This document shows positions 1,192 through 32,309 of a stretch of DNA of 64,000 nt, one piece after another; position 1 is the stretch's first letter; the number at the start of each line of letters is the position of its first letter. The notes beneath the pieces are model-generated. The model saw only the letters and a list, made by a program, of their open reading frames with translations, made no database searches and had not been told where the DNA came from. The position numbers and the translations under genes are program-made. Source of the stretch: Actinosynnema sp. ALI-1.44 (lineage in GTDB: Bacteria > Actinomycetota > Actinomycetes > Mycobacteriales > Pseudonocardiaceae). The stretch is taken from the NCBI RefSeq assembly GCF_001984155.1, contig NZ_MTQO01000046.1, positions 186,001-250,000 on the forward strand, given 5' to 3'.

Positions 1192-2007
1192 GTGATCGAA
1201 CTGAAGACGCCTGCGGAGATCGGCCGCATGCACGTCGCCGGGCGTTTCGTCGCCGAGGTGCTCACCGAGGTCGCCGACCTCGCCGACGTGGGCGTCAACC
1301 TCCTCGACCTCGAACGCCACGCGCGGGACATGATCACCCGGCGCGGCGCGGACTCCTGCTATTGGGACTACGCGCCGTCCTTCGGGCGGGGCCCGTTCCG
1401 CAACGTCATCTGCCTGTCGGTCAACGACGCCGTCCTGCACGGCTTGCCGCACGACTACACGCTGCGTGACGGCGACGTGCTCACCGCGGACCTCGCGGTC
1501 GGTATCGACGGCTGGGTCGCGGACTCCGCGCGGACCGTCGTGGTGGGCGCCGCCGCCGAGGAGGACCTGCGGATCATCCGCGCCACCGAAGAGGCGCTGG
1601 AGGCGGCGATCGCGGCCGCGCGGCCCGGCAACCGCCTGGGTGACATCTCCGCGGCGATCTCGGCGGTCGCCCGCGACCACGGCTACCCGGTCAACGACGA
1701 GTTCGGCGGCCACGGCATCGGCCGCACCATGCACGAGGCGCCGCACGTGTCCAACGTCGGCCGGGCCGGGCGCGGCCTGACACTCCGGCCGGGCCTGACC
1801 CTCGCGCTCGAACCCTGGTTCGCCCGCACGACCGACCGGATCGTCTACGACGACGACGGCTGGACCATCCGGTCGGCCGACGGCTCCCGCACCGCCCACT
1901 CCGAACACACCGTCGCCATCACCGAGGACGCCGCCCTGGTGCTCACCCGCCGCGAGTCCGAGGTCCCGGCCACGCGAGCGGTGACCCCGCTCAGCTGGCC
2001 GGGGTGA
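1192..2007 (+). CDS. map: type I methionine aminopeptidase
   Basis: Methionine aminopeptidase removes the initiator Met from nascent proteins in the cytosol using two metal ions. The 271-residue pita-bread protein shows the five metal ligands as D100, D111, H174 (in FGGHGIG), E207 (in LALEPWF) and E238 (in SEHT), plus substrate-binding H83. The start is GTG at 1192 with GAGGGG about 5 nt upstream. Actinobacteria commonly carry two or three map genes. This one sits alone, away from the secY-adk-map cluster, behind a paired palindromic operator, so it is probably a conditionally expressed accessory copy. Its 3' end overlaps the convergent NmrA-like gene by 17 bp. Confidence 0.9.
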   Translation: MIELKTPAEIGRMHVAGRFVAEVLTEVADLADVGVNLLDLERHARDMITRRGADSCYWDYAPSFGRGPFRNVICLSVNDAVLHGLPHDYTLRDGDVLTADLAVGIDGWVADSARTVVVGAAAEEDLRIIRATEEALEAAIAAARPGNRLGDISAAISAVARDHGYPVNDEFGGHGIGRTMHEAPHVSNVGRAGRGLTLRPGLTLALEPWFARTTDRIVYDDDGWTIRSADGSRTAHSEHTVAITEDAALVLTRRESEVPATRAVTPLSWPG

Positions 2008-2842
2008 AGTCGGCGGCGTGGTCGAGCGCCCACCGCGCGAACGTGCGGTACGGCCTGCCGGTGACCGCTTCGAAGTCCGGTGAGACGGTGAACTGGTAGT
2101 CGGAGAAGTCGTCGGCCTCAGCGCCTTCGTAGCCGCCGAGGCCGACCAGGTAGCGGGCCGACTCCTCCGGCCACCCCACGCTCACGTAATACTCGAGCGC
2201 CTCCTGTCGCGACACCGTCGTGAACGTCAGCTCACGGCCGATCGCCGCACCGATGTCGGCGGCCATCGCGCGCTGGGTCAGCTGCGCGGGCCCGGTCAGC
2301 GTGTACGCCCGGCCCGCGTGGCCGTCTTGCAGCAACGCCGCCACCGCCACCTCGGCGATGTCCCGCTCGTGAATCGGCTGGCCGTACTCGTCCGGCTCCG
2401 GGTGCACGATCGTGCCGTCCGCGCGGATCGACGGCCCCCACAGGTCGATCTTGTTCGTCGCGAACTCACCCGGCCGCACGTGCGTCCACTCCACCCCGGA
2501 CGCCTCGACCGCCTGCTCGACCGGCAGGTGATAGGTGGTGTCGTAACCATGGGTCACCGCGCCCGAGGACAACACCACGATCCGCCGCACCCCGGCCTTC
2601 GCCGCGACGTCCACGACGTCACGCACATCCGGGGAGGGCACGAACAGGAACAGCTTCTCCACCCCGTCGAACGGGATGTCATCCGGCGCGCCGAGATCAC
2701 CGCGCGCCACCTCCACGCCTTCGCCGAACACCGCCGCAGCCGGATCGCGCGTCATCGCCCGCACCCGCGCACCGGCCTCGGCCAGTCCGCGCACCACGTG
2801 CCGCCCGACGTTGCCCGTCGCCCCGGTCACCAGGATTGTCAT
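1991..2842 (-). CDS. NmrA-like NAD(P)-binding oxidoreductase
   Basis: The 283-residue protein starts MTILVTGATGNVGRHVV, a Rossmann GxxGxxG dinucleotide motif at its extreme N-terminus, and continues as an NmrA/atypical SDR with strand-helix repeats (VVLSSGAV around residue 90). The family contains NADPH-dependent quinone or azo reductases and redox sensors; the substrate here cannot be read. The start at 2842 is chosen because it puts the Rossmann motif at the N-terminus; longer upstream translation is only readthrough of the preceding gene's other frame. The ATG overlaps the TetR stop as TGATG, so the pair is a translationally coupled operon, and the TetR protein probably controls this enzyme. 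Confidence 0.88.
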   Translation of the reverse strand: MTILVTGATGNVGRHVVRGLAEAGARVRAMTRDPAAAVFGEGVEVARGDLGAPDDIPFDGVEKLFLFVPSPDVRDVVDVAAKAGVRRIVVLSSGAVTHGYDTTYHLPVEQAVEASGVEWTHVRPGEFATNKIDLWGPSIRADGTIVHPEPDEYGQPIHERDIAEVAVAALLQDGHAGRAYTLTGPAQLTQRAMAADIGAAIGRELTFTTVSRQEALEYYVSVGWPEESARYLVGLGGYEGAEADDFSDYQFTVSPDFEAVTGRPYRTFARWALDHAADFTPAS

Positions 2843-3600
2843 CACAAGCCCCCTTCGATCCCGTCCAGCATCCTGTCCAGCCCGTAGTCGAACGCCGTGC
2901 GCGCGGCGTCGGCGAGCGTGCCCTGCACCTCGTAGGCCCCGGCGTGCCACAGGCTCGTCATCACCGGGTACCGCTCCGGGTCGAAGTAGTCGTCCCAGAA
3001 CGTCTGCCGCGCGCGCCACCAGGAATCACTGGACTCGCCGGTGGCCGCCGCCAGCCGCTGGTCGTCCACTTCGGACGCGGCGGCGCCGTGCACGAACTCC
3101 TCGATGGCCCTGTGTGCCATCGGGATTTGGTGCGGTCGCAGTCCGGCGGCGGTGAGCGCGGCGAGCACGAACTCCTCCCCGGCCATCAACCCCGGCCCGA
3201 GCGGCGGGCGTGCCATCGAGACGTCCCGCATCCACGGGTGCGCGTGGTAGACCGCGCGAGTGCGGTCCGCGTAGTGCTTGATCCGCTCCCGCCAGGTCCC
3301 CGCCGCCACGAGATCGCGTTCGCGCAGCACCCAGTCGGCCATCAGGTCGACCAGTTCCGACTTGCCGGGCACGTGCGTGTACAGCGACATCGTGCCCACG
3401 TCCAGTTCGTGGGCCACGCGGGCCATCGACATGGCGCCCAGGCCCTCGCGGTCGGCCACCGCGACCGCCGCCGTGACGATCTGGTCGACGGTCACCTTCG
3501 GCTTGCGGCCGAGCTTCGGCGACGGCGGCGTGCGCCACAACAACGCGAGGGTCCTGGCGGCGTCCGCGCCGCCGCTGCGTTCGACGGCCACCCTGCCCAC
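2842..3600 (-). CDS. TetR family regulator with TetR_C-type ligand domain
   Basis: The helix-turn-helix lies at about residues 34-80 (VTVDQIVTAAVAVADREG...ARVAHELDVGTMSLYTHVPGKSEL), followed by a TetR/AcrR C-terminal ligand domain, total about 252 residues. Such proteins repress nearby genes until a small ligand binds. A GTG at 3600 gives the full frame; a second GTG three codons in (3591) has a better ribosome site, so the start is uncertain. Two copies of a CCGTA-N5-TACGG palindrome lie immediately upstream, which suggests autoregulation of this TetR-oxidoreductase operon. Confidence 0.88.
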   Translation of the reverse strand: MGRVAVERSGGADAARTLALLWRTPPSPKLGRKPKVTVDQIVTAAVAVADREGLGAMSMARVAHELDVGTMSLYTHVPGKSELVDLMADWVLRERDLVAAGTWRERIKHYADRTRAVYHAHPWMRDVSMARPPLGPGLMAGEEFVLAALTAAGLRPHQIPMAHRAIEEFVHGAAASEVDDQRLAAATGESSDSWWRARQTFWDDYFDPERYPVMTSLWHAGAYEVQGTLADAARTAFDYGLDRMLDGIEGGL

Positions 3601-25634: not shown

Positions 25635-26000
25635 GTGATCAGCAGGACCGAAGCGATGCAAGCCGGAGTCGGCATCCTGACCGTCGCACACGGAGCCGCC
25701 CACGGCACCGCCATCGCCGACATCAAAGAAGCCCTCACCGTCCTCCGTCAAGGAGTACTCGACCTCCACATCGACATCAGCGACGTCCCCGGCGAATGCG
25801 ACACCGTCGTCCGCCAAGTCGCCCAGGAAGTCGCCGAAGAACTCAGCCGACGCGCCCAGCAGATGGTCAACGGATGCGTCAAAGCCTTCGTCGAAGTCGC
25901 CACCGCCTACGAACGAGACTGCCCCGACGCCGACATCCCCGCCCTCCTGCAAAAAGCCTCACTCGACCTCGCCACCGAACAACTCGACGACGACGCCTGA
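25635..26000 (+). CDS. hypothetical helical protein
   Basis: A 121-residue product starting at GTG 25635, with no signal peptide or membrane segment. It is predicted to be largely alpha-helical, with amphipathic stretches (IADIKEALTVLRQGVLDLHIDISDV, VRQVAQEVAEELSRRAQQMVNGCVKAFVEVA) and an acidic tail ending DDDA. It is not recognised. Codon third positions are almost all C or G, which supports real coding. It is the last intact gene before the dif site. Confidence 0.65.
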   Translation: MISRTEAMQAGVGILTVAHGAAHGTAIADIKEALTVLRQGVLDLHIDISDVPGECDTVVRQVAQEVAEELSRRAQQMVNGCVKAFVEVATAYERDCPDADIPALLQKASLDLATEQLDDDA

Positions 26001-26334: not shown

Positions 26335-26362
26335 ACTTGACATAATGTAGATTATCGAACTT
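26335..26362 (-). other. dif: dif: chromosome dimer resolution (Xer recombination) site
   Basis: Read on the minus strand, the 28 bp consist of an 11-bp XerC-side arm AAGTTCGATAA, a 6-bp centre TCTACA and an 11-bp XerD-side arm TTATGTCAAGT. The inner half-sites and spacing match the E. coli dif pattern (CATAA, six bases, TTATG, then TTAAAT); from position 8 onward 17 of 21 bases agree with E. coli dif. This is an AT-rich island in very GC-rich DNA. XerC and XerD recombine dif to separate dimeric chromosomes at the replication terminus. Confidence 0.85.
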
Positions 26363-26397: not shown

Positions 26398-26691
26398 TCA
26401 GGCGTCGTTTTCAGCTGTATCGGCGTGGTCGTCGACCTGTCCGCCAACCGGGTTGTCGTCTCGGTGACACTCGGTGCGAAGCTCATCATCTGACAGTCGG
26501 TCATCATGGCTCGCTGGGTTCAGGTGACGTCCGGGCGTCAGCCAATCAGCCAGCCAGTCAGCCAGGTGGCCCTGAGGCGGTCTTCGCCCCTGACTCGAAC
26601 GGCTCACCTGTTCACCGTTAAACGTCACCGTGACGTTTCTAGGCAAGGTCGCCGGGCGTTCCTGAGCGGGGTTCTGTCCGGTTTCATGCAT
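26398..26691 (-). CDS. possible small hypothetical protein near dif
   Basis: An open frame of 97 residues starting at ATG 26691 (MHETGQNPAQERPATLPRN...) with a hydrophilic, Asp/His-rich C-terminus (SHDDRLSDDELRTECHRDD). The start lies inside the symmetric Xer-like site and the frame contains a 19-bp palindrome, so a regulatory role for this stretch competes with coding. No homology is recognised. It is divergent from the recombinase gene; a small accessory (directionality or regulatory) protein is possible but unproven. Confidence 0.3.
   Translation of the reverse strand: MHETGQNPAQERPATLPRNVTVTFNGEQVSRSSQGRRPPQGHLADWLADWLTPGRHLNPASHDDRLSDDELRTECHRDDNPVGGQVDDHADTAENDA
26620..26638. promoter_or_regulatory. 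19-bp palindrome upstream of the recombinase gene
   Basis: AAACGTCAC (26620-26628), one base, GTGACGTTT (26630-26638): a perfect 9-bp dyad about 70 bp before the recombinase start. It could bind a dimeric repressor. Short CAGCC-type direct repeats lie at about 26541-26568. The rest of 26363-26682 shows nothing recognisable. Confidence 0.5.
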
Positions 26692-26710
26692 AATGACTGT
26701 TATGCATGAA
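26683..26710. other. symmetric 28-bp Xer-like site at the recombinase start
   Basis: TTCATGCATAA (26683-26693), six bases TGACTG, then TTATGCATGAA (26700-26710): a perfect 11-6-11 inverted repeat. The inner arms CATAA-N6-TTATG are identical to those of E. coli dif. Tyrosine recombinases act on exactly this geometry. Because both arms are the same, it could be bound by a single recombinase, as in one-protein Xer systems. It overlaps the first codon of the adjacent recombinase gene, so it may be the recombinase's own core site, an autoregulatory operator, or both. Confidence 0.65.
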
Positions 26711-27749
26711 TTCAACGTGTGTAGAAATGCGGATTGTCGGTGGTTACCGGTATCAAGATCACGTGCAGCTGTTGCTCGACGCCCAGACCGCGTTCTTCCT
26801 CGCCCGCAAACCCCGTAAGGACTCCCCGCACACCACTGCCGCCTACCGCCGCGACCTGACCGGCATCACTACCCTGCTGTCCGACACCACCGGCAGGGCC
26901 GTCGAACAGCTCACCGTCGAGGACCTGACCGTGCAGGCGCTCCGAACAGCGTTCGGTGAGTTCGCCGATGGACACGCCAAGAGTTCCGTGGCCCGCGCGT
27001 GGTCGACGTGGAACCAGTTCCTCAACTTCTGCGTGGCCGACGGTCTGCTGGAGGGCAATCCGATGGGCGCGGTCGTCCGGCCGAAGGCGCCACTTCCCTC
27101 CCCCAAGCCGCTGCGCGGCGAGGACACCCCGGAGAAGCTCATCGCCGCGGCCGCCGCCGGGGCTCGCAAGGCACGCGATCCGTGGCCGGAACGGGATGTC
27201 CTGGTGATCGCGCTGGGGTTGGTCGCCGGGCTGCGCTCGGCGGAAGTCCGTGCGCTGCAACGGTGTTCGATCGTCGGCAGGCCTGGTGAGCAGCGGCTGC
27301 ACGTGCAGGGCAAGGGAAGCAGGGAGCGGTCCATCCCGATCGAGGCGCCGCTGGAACGGGTGATCGACGCGTACCTCGGCTCCTGCGCGGTGCGGTTCCC
27401 GCATCAGCGGTTCGGCTCGACTTCGGCTCTGCTGCTGGACTACCGGGGCAAGCCGATCGGCCGGGGCGCCTTGGACTACTTGGTGAAGACCAGTTACCGG
27501 TGGGCGGGGATCCGTGACCAGGTGCCGACGGGTGCGAATCTGCACGCGCTGCGGCACACGTTCGCGACGCGGCTGGCTGAGGACGGCGCGAACGCCGCGG
27601 AGATCATGGCGTTGCTGGGCCATGCGAATCTGAACACGAGTCAGAACTACATCGAGGCGACCGGGCGGGAGCGGCGGGCGGCCGCGGCGGGCAATCGCAC
27701 CTACCGGGCGTTGTCGGGGTTGGATCCGGAGACGGCCCGCGATTCCTGA
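26706..27749 (+). CDS. Xer-like tyrosine recombinase next to dif
   Basis: 347 residues with an N-terminal SAM-like core-binding domain (residues about 15-115, HTTAAYRRDLTGITTLL) and a C-terminal catalytic domain. All active-site residues are visible: Arg in AGLRSAEVRAL, Lys in GKGSRER, HALRH (His-x-x-Arg), His in LLGHANL and the nucleophile Tyr in TSQNYIEATG. ATG at 26727 is an alternative start; neither has a good ribosome site. It lies 343 bp from dif, and its 5' end carries a symmetric Xer-like site. It could be a dedicated terminus recombinase or the integrase of a small dif-using element. The following 49 bp to the convergent response regulator hold no clear terminator. Confidence 0.9.
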   Translation: MNSTCVEMRIVGGYRYQDHVQLLLDAQTAFFLARKPRKDSPHTTAAYRRDLTGITTLLSDTTGRAVEQLTVEDLTVQALRTAFGEFADGHAKSSVARAWSTWNQFLNFCVADGLLEGNPMGAVVRPKAPLPSPKPLRGEDTPEKLIAAAAAGARKARDPWPERDVLVIALGLVAGLRSAEVRALQRCSIVGRPGEQRLHVQGKGSRERSIPIEAPLERVIDAYLGSCAVRFPHQRFGSTSALLLDYRGKPIGRGALDYLVKTSYRWAGIRDQVPTGANLHALRHTFATRLAEDGANAAEIMALLGHANLNTSQNYIEATGRERRAAAAGNRTYRALSGLDPETARDS

Positions 27750-30325: not shown

Positions 30326-31450
30326 CTACTGCGTGCTCAGCCAGTGCACGGTGTGTGCTTCGGTTGGGTCGGGGGCTTCCCATTTGTTCACGAGGCGGTC
30401 GATGACCGCGGTGGGCACGGGTTGTGGGCGGGCCGCGTTGCGGTTTTTGATCACTGTGAGCGGTGCCTCCAGTGCGATCACTTCCACCCGTGCTTTGTAG
30501 GCTGCGGCGAGTCCGATGGATTGTTGCCGGATCTGCCTGGACACGTTTGTTCCGTTCCACACGAACGATTCCCCGGCGCGGAGGTGTCTGCGTGCCTGTT
30601 CTTGGGCTGCGCTGATGACGGGCCGTTGGTTGTCGGTGGGTTTGACGCGCATGGTGGTGCGGAGGGCGTCCAGGCTGATCACGGGCAGGTTGGGGCGGTG
30701 GGTGGTGATCCAGGTGTCTTTGCCGACGCCGGGGAGGCCGGACATGACGGTGACGGTGAGGCGGGTGTCGTCGTAGGCGTTGTAGTCCGGGTCGCGGTGG
30801 GGTGTGCGGAAGTAGAGGAACCGGGCGTGGTCGGAGGGGAACGCGCGGGATGTGTCGAGGCACGCGGTTTCGGCGCAGTAGTCGCGGTAGAGGGCGATGT
30901 TGTCGAGGATGTCGTCGGTGTCGTGGCAGACGCGGCCGGTGATGTCGGCGGTGGCGAGCGTGGCGAGGTCGGTGTTGCGGGCGAGCAGGCTGACGCGGAA
31001 CGCGATGTGTTGCAGGTCGGGGCGTTCCAGTGCCCAGAACGGGATTTGGTGGTGGCGGACGAGTGCGGCGACGTGTTCGCGCCATGCGGGTGGGGTGTCG
31101 AGTTCCCAGAGGATGCGGCGGGTGAGCAGGTCGCCGCGGCGGGAGTGGCCGTGTGCGGTGATGTGGCCGTCGTCGGTGTGGTGGGTGCAGTCGGGTTTGG
31201 CGACGTCGTGCAGCAGGACGGTGGCGAAGAGGCGGGTTTGGTCGTGGCGTGGGAGGGCGCGCCAGTCGGGGTTGTCGACCATGGCTTGGCAGGCCATGTG
31301 GGTGTGGGTTTCGACGTCGCCTTCGGCGTGGTGCTGGGGGTCTTGGGGGACGCCGGTCATGCGGCGGATCCACCAGAAGGTGTCGCGGATGGCGGGCCAG
31401 TCGAGGGTCCAGGTGGGTGCGGCCGGGCAGAGCCGGTCAAAGGGTTCCAT
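30326..31450 (-). CDS. HD-Pnk-like RNA end-healing enzyme (HD phosphohydrolase + P-loop kinase)
   Basis: 374 residues. The N-terminal HD domain has His residues at about 40-51 and the HD pair at 81-82 (VLLHDVAKPD). The C-terminal P-loop kinase has the Walker A motif GLPGVGKDT at about 238-246, with a Pnk-like lid (NGTNVSRQIRQQS). In characterised HD-Pnk enzymes the HD domain removes 2',3'-cyclic or 3'-phosphates and the kinase phosphorylates 5'-OH ends, leaving RNA ends ready for ligation. Its start overlaps the end of the RNA ligase gene by 14 bp, so it is coupled to it. Confidence 0.87.
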   Translation of the reverse strand: MEPFDRLCPAAPTWTLDWPAIRDTFWWIRRMTGVPQDPQHHAEGDVETHTHMACQAMVDNPDWRALPRHDQTRLFATVLLHDVAKPDCTHHTDDGHITAHGHSRRGDLLTRRILWELDTPPAWREHVAALVRHHQIPFWALERPDLQHIAFRVSLLARNTDLATLATADITGRVCHDTDDILDNIALYRDYCAETACLDTSRAFPSDHARFLYFRTPHRDPDYNAYDDTRLTVTVMSGLPGVGKDTWITTHRPNLPVISLDALRTTMRVKPTDNQRPVISAAQEQARRHLRAGESFVWNGTNVSRQIRQQSIGLAAAYKARVEVIALEAPLTVIKNRNAARPQPVPTAVIDRLVNKWEAPDPTEAHTVHWLSTQ

Positions 31451-32204
31451 ACATCACCGCCGGGTCGCGCAGTTGGTTGGGCAGGATGGGCCGGTTCATC
31501 CAGTGGGTGCCGGAGTCGAGGACGGCGGTGAGGAAGGTGGGCCGGACCCATTTGTAGCGTTCGGTGACGGTGCCGTGTTCTTCGGCTTTGATGTAGAGGC
31601 CTTCCATGTGTTCGTGGGTGTCGGTTTCGGCGATGGCGGTGTCACTCCCGTGGGCTTCGAGGGTGTCGCGCCAGTGGGGTGTGCGGCAGGTGGAGGGGCC
31701 GACGAGGGCGAGCAGGTCGGTGCGGGTGTCGAGTGGGCCGGTGTGTAGGACGGGCACGGAGTGGATGGGCAGGCCGTCGAGGAGTTCCGCGCGTCGTGGG
31801 GTGGACAGGAAGTGTCCGGTGTGGGTGTCGAGGATGTCGAATTCGCAGAAATAGTGCGGGAGGGCGTCGTAGAAGACGGTGTGTTTGGCGTAGAGCCATT
31901 CGCCGTAGACGACGTATCGGGTTCCTATTCGGTTGTGCAGGGCGTGGTGGATGGTGGGTGCCCAGGCTTTGAGTGGGGTGAACTGTCGTTCTCGGGGGCC
32001 GCCGGTGAGGTAGTGGCCTCGGCTTTGCAGCAGGAGGTCGCCGTCGGGGCTGAAGCTGATGGCGGTGTTGGCTCCGTCGAGTTTTTCCTCCACGACGAGG
32101 TGCCGGCCGCGGATGTGGGTGAAGGCGACGGCTTTCATGTCTTCGTCGCCTGGTTGCAGCCGGGATGATTCGAGGTGGTGGGTTCGGGGGTATTTGCGGA
32201 GCAC
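31437..32204 (-). CDS. ATP-dependent RNA ligase
   Basis: 255 residues of the nucleotidyl-transferase ligase superfamily. The adenylation Lys is K41 in VEEKLDGAN (motif KxDG); later motifs are YVVYGEWLYAKHTV (III/IIIa), MEGLYIKAE (IV) and YKWVRPTF (V). It joins 5'-phosphate and 3'-OH RNA ends. GTG at 32204 is chosen because the family N-terminus reads KYPRTxHLExSRLQPGDED; a TATAAC -10-like box sits 7 nt before it, so the mRNA may be leaderless. It is the first gene of the RNA-repair pair. Confidence 0.88.
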   Translation of the reverse strand: MLRKYPRTHHLESSRLQPGDEDMKAVAFTHIRGRHLVVEEKLDGANTAISFSPDGDLLLQSRGHYLTGGPRERQFTPLKAWAPTIHHALHNRIGTRYVVYGEWLYAKHTVFYDALPHYFCEFDILDTHTGHFLSTPRRAELLDGLPIHSVPVLHTGPLDTRTDLLALVGPSTCRTPHWRDTLEAHGSDTAIAETDTHEHMEGLYIKAEEHGTVTERYKWVRPTFLTAVLDSGTHWMNRPILPNQLRDPAVMYGTL

Positions 32205-32309
32205 GGGTTGGTTATAGCCCGGTGGTGTGTGGTGGTCGACTCGTTTTGTTGCGGGGGTGTGCACTCCCCTGTGTCGTGGGTGGTGGGTGGGGCGCATAGG
32301 GTGGTGGTG

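Follow-up and report, generated by a model that had tools for sequence, protein, structure and literature searches.

A symmetric 11-6-11 site near dif and its association with a third Xer-type tyrosine recombinase in Actinosynnema and related actinobacteria

The dif locus of Actinosynnema sp. ALI-1.44

The window analysed here, a stretch of 64,000 nucleotides of the Actinosynnema sp. ALI-1.44 genome, harbours the dif site of the XerCD system, a second and symmetric site hereafter named S2, the gene of a third Xer-type tyrosine recombinase, and a short palindrome lying between the two sites (Table 1). The initial annotation had described S2 as a perfect 11-6-11 dyad separated from dif by 320 bp, and both the dyad and the spacing were recovered exactly. 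It had also equated the inner arms of S2 with those of dif, which is a little generous, the identity being restricted to 5 bp on one side (CATAA) and 4 bp on the other (TTAT). The overlap that it reported with the beginning of the recombinase gene holds for the predicted open reading frame, the ATG of which is covered by the right arm of S2; this start codon is uncertain, and many relatives of the protein align only from about residue 20 onward. With up to three mismatches allowed, S2 was matched once in the window and never in 100 dinucleotide-preserving shuffles of it, and it occupies a single place in the whole genome (11,712,314 bases).

Table 1. Position and composition of the features of the dif-S2 locus, in window coordinates
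Feature	Position	Strand	Description
dif (XerCD site)	26335..26362	+	ACTTGACATAA TGTAGA TTATCGAACTT; near the skew switch
Dif-associated palindrome	26624..26634	.	GTCACCGTGAC (consensus GTCACNGTGAC); inside a 19-bp palindrome, 26620-26638
S2, symmetric 11-6-11 site	26683..26710	.	Arms TTCATGCATAA / TTATGCATGAA, core TGACTG
Third Xer-type tyrosine recombinase, 347 aa	26706..27749	+	Pfam Phage_integrase, SAM_1; start codon uncertain

The locus lies in a replication terminus setting. The GC skew switches within the window, with a cumulative minimum at 27158, and S2 is separated from dnaA by 0.41-0.50 of the chromosome in 39 out of 48 genomes, a value based for 33 of them on lengths rounded to 0.1 Mb (the nine others comprise four genomes without the recombinase and five without an S2 position to hand). 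The 28-mer of dif is identical in seven other loci of the genus group. Provided that the dif of F. alni is written with its XerC arm first, a convention that we assume here, the XerD arm of the window dif corresponds to 26335-26345 and the XerC arm, facing S2, to 26352-26362. The published F. alni site, as given in the accessible part of its source, was the basis for this assignment (PMC3025954).

The XerCD system has not been replaced in these organisms, dif being found in the recombinase-positive genomes checked. Two proteins encoded outside the locus match the XerD model in the genome of Actinosynnema sp. ALI-1.44, at 346 and 259 bits, and correspond to XerD and a probable XerC. Among 16 genomes, XerD scored above the cut-off in 12 and slightly below it in G030 and G064, and was absent from G029 and G090. 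Two other features of the window were recorded: a 121-aa open reading frame to the left of dif (25635-26000), without Pfam match and with similar DNA on the same side of dif at several loci within the genus, and an RNA ligase gene adjoining a gene with an AAA_33 domain (30326-32297), which could form an RNA repair pair.

Joint occurrence of the recombinase and S2, and placement of S2 at dif

The recombinase reached only 147 bits against the XerC model (cut-off 335) and 125 bits against the XerD model (cut-off 330), and it belongs to a clade apart from the eight Xer rows of the tree (support 100/100), so that its assignment to XerC or XerD was rejected. Among solved structures, XerD is nevertheless its best relative by sequence. 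Its predicted model (mean pLDDT 79, pTM 0.57) is least certain around the catalytic tyrosine (pLDDT <50) and has XerH with difH as best fold match, at a TM of about 0.4, with Cre structures also among the matches. Residues R177, K203, H280, R283, H306 and Y315, which we take to be the catalytic set, are invariant in an alignment of 22 sequences.

Xer relatives are present in all of 60 genomes, including that of Actinosynnema sp. ALI-1.44, and in 26 of these genomes a relative reaches at least 39% identity along most of its length. A broader search of 297 genomes of the family, at E <= 1e-40, recovered one relative each in 166 genomes spread over 23 of 46 genera, its presence being stable across whole genera. 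The same 297 genomes were searched with the core pattern of S2 (TGSATAA-N6-TTATSCA), which was found in 167 of them, the reversed control being found in none. Recombinase and core pattern were both present in 164 genomes and both missing in 128 (Fisher p 4e-78, for genomes that are related to one another), which supports the one-protein recombination system envisaged in the initial annotation. Relatives that keep the recombinase without the palindrome were looked for in this set and none was found, the two genomes with the recombinase only (G005 and G018) having near the gene a site that differs by one letter. The three genomes with the core pattern only have DnaA-box-like palindromes, such as CCTGTGGATAA...TTATCCACAGG; these were rejected as counter-examples since they lie away from dif and contain what we take to be a DnaA box. 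Palindromes of this kind in G249, G257 and G280 mimic the core pattern and resemble paired DnaA boxes.

Gene and site have also been lost together. Two genera have a mixed membership, and in both of them S2 is absent where the gene is absent. G290 and G318 have lost the gene and S2 and kept dif. In G029 and G090, from genus g23, neither a dif at up to three mismatches nor S2 nor the third recombinase was found, and their best scores with the XerD model (144 and 115 bits) reveal no protein of XerC/XerD grade. These two genomes possibly have linear chromosomes, with which the near-central position of dnaA on the single 11.79-Mb contig of G029 would fit. A dif match at up to three mismatches is also missing in G062, which does not belong to the genera with joint loss.

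The association extends to the place of S2 in the chromosome. When dif loci were made from individual genomes, S2 occurred within 1.5 kb of dif in all 22 recombinase-positive genomes, which are part of the 166 mentioned above, and in none of 31 recombinase-negative ones; three of the 31 negative dif sites carry two mismatches to the pattern, and this count covers neither G016, G034, G067 and G100, negative genomes with a dif match for which no locus was made, nor G042, which has no S2 at dif and whose single relative is carried by a probable plasmid. In 159 distinct loci, for which the search for S2 extended no further than 6 kb from a dif, the two sites are 252 to 4216 bp apart, with a median of 479 bp and less than 1 kb in 156, S2 being on the XerC side of dif in 151 and on the opposite side in 8. 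This set leaves out ten loci with extra core matches (L283, L284, L288-L290, L295, L297-L299 and L323) and keeps the second pair of G182 as L296. The record titles of L077, L115 and L124 (Rhodococcus rhodnii, Candidatus Melainabacteria and Streptomyces sp., respectively) clash with their dif/S2 context.

The gene of the recombinase generally follows S2, the order dif, S2, gene being observed in 77 of 80 named loci. The exceptions are L142, cut by a contig end, L082, with a site one letter off, and L149, which has neither site within 10 kb; the latter belongs to Actinoalloteichus caeruleus (G030), where dif and S2 are 535 bp apart and the gene is 531 kb away. S2 likewise remains at dif in 13 genomes where the gene is at least 123 kb and up to 1.57 Mb off on the same contig, and, unless the contig of G098 is circular, gene and S2 are 3.8 Mb apart in that genome. 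Since S2 stays at dif when the gene is this remote, it is neither an operator nor the attachment site of an integrase encoded nearby.

The site itself has symmetric arms and a free core. Perfect sites represent 74 of the 159 loci, the 85 imperfect ones having 7-10 of the 11 arm positions matched. The two arms covary, as illustrated by the pairs TTCATGCATAA/TTATGCATGAA, TTGATGGATAA/TTATCCATCAA, TTCGTGCATAA/TTATGCACGAA and TTGGTGGATAA/TTATCCACCAA, and the symmetry of 52 distinct arm pairs (9.23 of 11 positions) exceeds that of all 10,000 permutations (mean 8.71). Almost all of this covariation comes from position 7, matched in 88% of the pairs against 51% expected, and matching at positions 1-4 is barely above expectation. 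The core exists in 53 kinds among the 159 loci. Among 239 pairs of sites whose flanks share at least 70% identity, the cores differ at two or more places in 37, and in 27 of these 37 they are exact reverse complements of each other. The pairs are not independent, and the majority of the inverted ones differ at two places only, which is weak by itself; the pairs differing at four and at six places are both exact reverse complements. In the control on dif cores, TGTATC (three loci) also has its reverse complement GATACA (one locus). Inversion of the S2 core could have its source in strand exchange or in cruciform extrusion.

A single copy of a second palindrome, GTCACNGTGAC, lies between S2 and dif in 84 of the 159 loci, and the remaining 1.70 Mb of these loci contain six copies. 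In the window, GTCACCGTGAC occurs once in its exact form and seven times with one mismatch allowed, against 6.1 expected, which represents no enrichment. Among the 31 recombinase-negative genomes, nine have GTCACNGTGAC on the XerC side of dif, 243-274 bp away, two have it at 70-71 bp and one at 1223 bp; as it is also near dif without the third recombinase, this element belongs to dif and not to the recombinase. It was not found in the f31, f15 and Kribbella loci of the set, and a variant differing by two letters occurs in many Lentzea loci.

Plasmid relatives and distribution in other families

Relatives of the recombinase were retrieved at E <= 1e-20 from 60 plasmid records, all of Mycobacterium, Mycolicibacterium, Rhodococcus, Dietzia, Prescottella and Corynebacterium. 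A symmetric TAA-N6-TTA site lies upstream of the gene in 10 of 14 plasmid loci, two of the ten being near copies (L249 and L254) and L050 being taken as a plasmid from the length of its contig, equal to that of NZ_CP092363.2; no site was found in the about 2.5 kb fetched for the four others. The sites of the Rhodococcus plasmids have their own arms, TTGCTAGATAA/TTATCTAGCAA. A tree of 59 rows separates 13 plasmid sequences (96/96) and 38 chromosomal sequences (84/90) into two groups, both apart from eight XerC/XerD rows. An ancestral position of the plasmid family is not supported by this tree, in which both are sister groups, the chromosomal side reaches only 84/90 and a long-branch warning applies. 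Like its plasmid relatives, which are candidate resolution modules, the recombinase of the window lies beside a symmetric TAA-N6-TTA site, but it is itself chromosomal and located opposite dnaA.

In the same tree, Kribbella, which belongs to another order, nests beside Amycolatopsis, and the unit was found at dif in five records titled Kribbella and one titled Streptomyces. The unit therefore seems to have moved between orders while keeping its position, and the tree suggests that Kribbella probably acquired it by transfer of the dif-side unit. At the scale of the class, 34 of 394 genomes have a relative at E <= 1e-30, distributed over the own family (2), f8 (3), f15 (2), f31 (26) and f32 (1). 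In both f15 genomes S2 is on the opposite side of dif, at 459 and 774 bp. In 19 of the 26 f31 genomes, dif and S2 are 300-951 bp apart and no more than 7.5 kb separates dif from the gene. The seven other f31 genomes (G373, G468, G532, G575, G623, G639 and G684) have the site within 7.4 kb of the gene, poor in G623, and no dif in the 35-100 kb fetched around the gene, which speaks against a strict rule tying S2 to dif.

Viral contigs provided three relatives at 54% identity, all near contig ends and with dif and S2 adjoining, and three weak ones at 25-26% identity; none of the 49 matches in phage records reaches 60% identity. A contig of G182 (C55) displays a second S2, whose core is TGAGCA, at 1.3 kb from a dif-like site (L323, 6710-8060; also L296), together with a large serine recombinase at 1884-3443 and no relative of the tyrosine recombinase in 20 kb. 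This contig is perhaps an element or a replicon bearing both sites of the host.

Proposed function, alternative explanations and known systems

Taken together, these comparisons of sequences make it likely that S2 is the crossover site of the third Xer-type recombinase and that both form a one-recombinase system of the terminus beside XerCD/dif. These soil bacteria would then probably possess a second system for untangling chromosomes alongside the first. Two subunits of the same recombinase would occupy the two symmetric arms of S2, the S2 copies of sister chromosomes would synapse and strands would be exchanged across the 6-bp core, leading to one crossover at the replication terminus. Chromosome dimers could be resolved in this way, or sister chromosomes unlinked, by a second path next to XerCD/dif. 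We infer binding, strand exchange and dimer resolution at S2.

The coexistence of both systems would have a consequence for their use, as a dimer that underwent one crossover at each site would still be a dimer. Because crossovers at both sites would cancel each other, the dif and S2 systems should be separated by time, cell type or trigger. A tentative and rather doubtful extension considers the terminus as a built exchange cassette, made of dif with XerCD, S2 with its dedicated recombinase and, in many genera, GTCACNGTGAC near the midpoint, in which crossovers would be switched according to stage or cell type and the spacing of a few hundred base pairs would be part of the switch. The alternation could be between growing hypha and sporulation septum, or between FtsK-dependent and FtsK-independent conditions.

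A structural role at the terminus, where the recombinase and S2 would bridge dif and S2 or hold sister chromosomes with little or no strand exchange, appears unlikely. It would account for S2 lying close to dif, usually on the same side, and for GTCACNGTGAC near the midpoint in many genera, but it fits poorly with the invariance of the catalytic residues in the 22 sequences and with the existence of plasmid sisters, as well as with the cores inverted in place, even if cruciform extrusion could do likewise.

Very unlikely is that S2 marks an IMEX-like mobile element integrating at dif, with the recombinase as its integrase. The probable transfer of the unit indicated by the nesting of Kribbella and the second S2 and dif-like site of G182, near a serine recombinase, would be in its favour; on the other hand, the presence of the gene is stable over genera, gene and site can be separated by at least 123 kb, and 77 of the 80 named loci have a single dif and a single S2 over 10 kb on either side where the contig allows, with no second flanking att or dif copy, on which ground this candidate was rejected. 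The related proposal of the initial annotation, an autoregulated integrase exploiting dif, finds no support, given that S2 tracks dif and not the gene, that the 80 named loci lack a second flanking dif or S2 and that the presence of the recombinase is stable over whole genera. In the genus of the window, the recombinase could still regulate itself, as a secondary effect, through the S2 arm that overlaps its start codon.

An equally improbable explanation makes S2 a second dif for XerC and XerD, unrelated to the third recombinase. The inner arms of S2 do resemble those of dif, and the genome has the XerC and XerD candidates that this would involve; yet S2 is at none of the 31 recombinase-negative dif loci, although the XerD model has matches in those of these genomes that were checked, and this absence led to its rejection, together with the co-occurrence of gene and site and the plasmid sisters that bear both. 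Finally, S2 is hardly to be regarded as an operator through which the recombinase or another regulator controls the recombinase promoter, despite its overlap with the start codon in the window and its location 11-34 bp ahead of the inferred start in many loci of Kibdelosporangium, Amycolatopsis and Lentzea, since it tracks dif rather than the gene, as in the 13 genomes with a remote gene, is 0.2-7 kb upstream of the gene in other genomes, and has a TAA-N6-TTA geometry and a free core that suit a crossover site.

To our knowledge, a bacterium has one chromosome-dimer resolution system. If S2 is the crossover site of the third recombinase, a second system is maintained next to dif in half of the sampled genera of one family, as well as in members of further families, which raises the questions of why one crossover is insufficient and how crossovers that cancel each other are kept apart. 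The natural losses (G290, G318, G029 and G090) and the genes that have moved make this question of two systems directly testable.

S2 shares with XerCD/dif its 11-6-11 geometry, inner arms, place at the terminus and the fold of its recombinase, but XerCD/dif involves a pair of proteins and arms that are not symmetric, and the third recombinase falls outside the XerC/XerD clade. The Cre/lox system of P1 combines one protein and symmetric arms with an asymmetric core, all three of which recur here, and plasmid resolution is a probable parallel in the sister family; it differs from the S2 system in the Xer-like sequence, the 6-bp core and the chromosomal place beside dif of the latter. Extra dif-like sites are described on Acinetobacter chromosomes, which likewise have more than one per chromosome; according to the accessible text, these are XerCD sites of mobile modules, whereas S2 has its own recombinase (PMC12907356). 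Neither a second system beside XerCD/dif nor the family of the third recombinase is described among the open-licence literature matches listed. Prediction of dif sites and the classification of tyrosine recombinases are treated in print (PMC3025954 and PMC8138268, respectively).

Single-recombinase systems are known with XerS, XerH and XerA, and those found in print serve, in the accessible parts of these sources, hosts without XerCD (PMC5357621, PMC2731167). XerS/difSL and XerH/difH resemble the S2 system by their unique recombinase and their site at the terminus, often adjoining the gene, but they replace XerCD where S2 hosts keep both, and their relation in sequence to the protein of the window is remote. 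The nearest system in print is XerL/dif of Legionellales, in which a single tyrosine recombinase constitutes the only Xer system of the host. As far as the accessible part of its description goes, it has in common with S2 one recombinase, long uninterrupted inverted repeats in the site, a gene far from the site in L. pneumophila and a plasmid-borne version in Coxiella (PMC9765430). It differs in that S2 hosts also have XerCD/dif, with S2 only a few hundred base pairs from dif.
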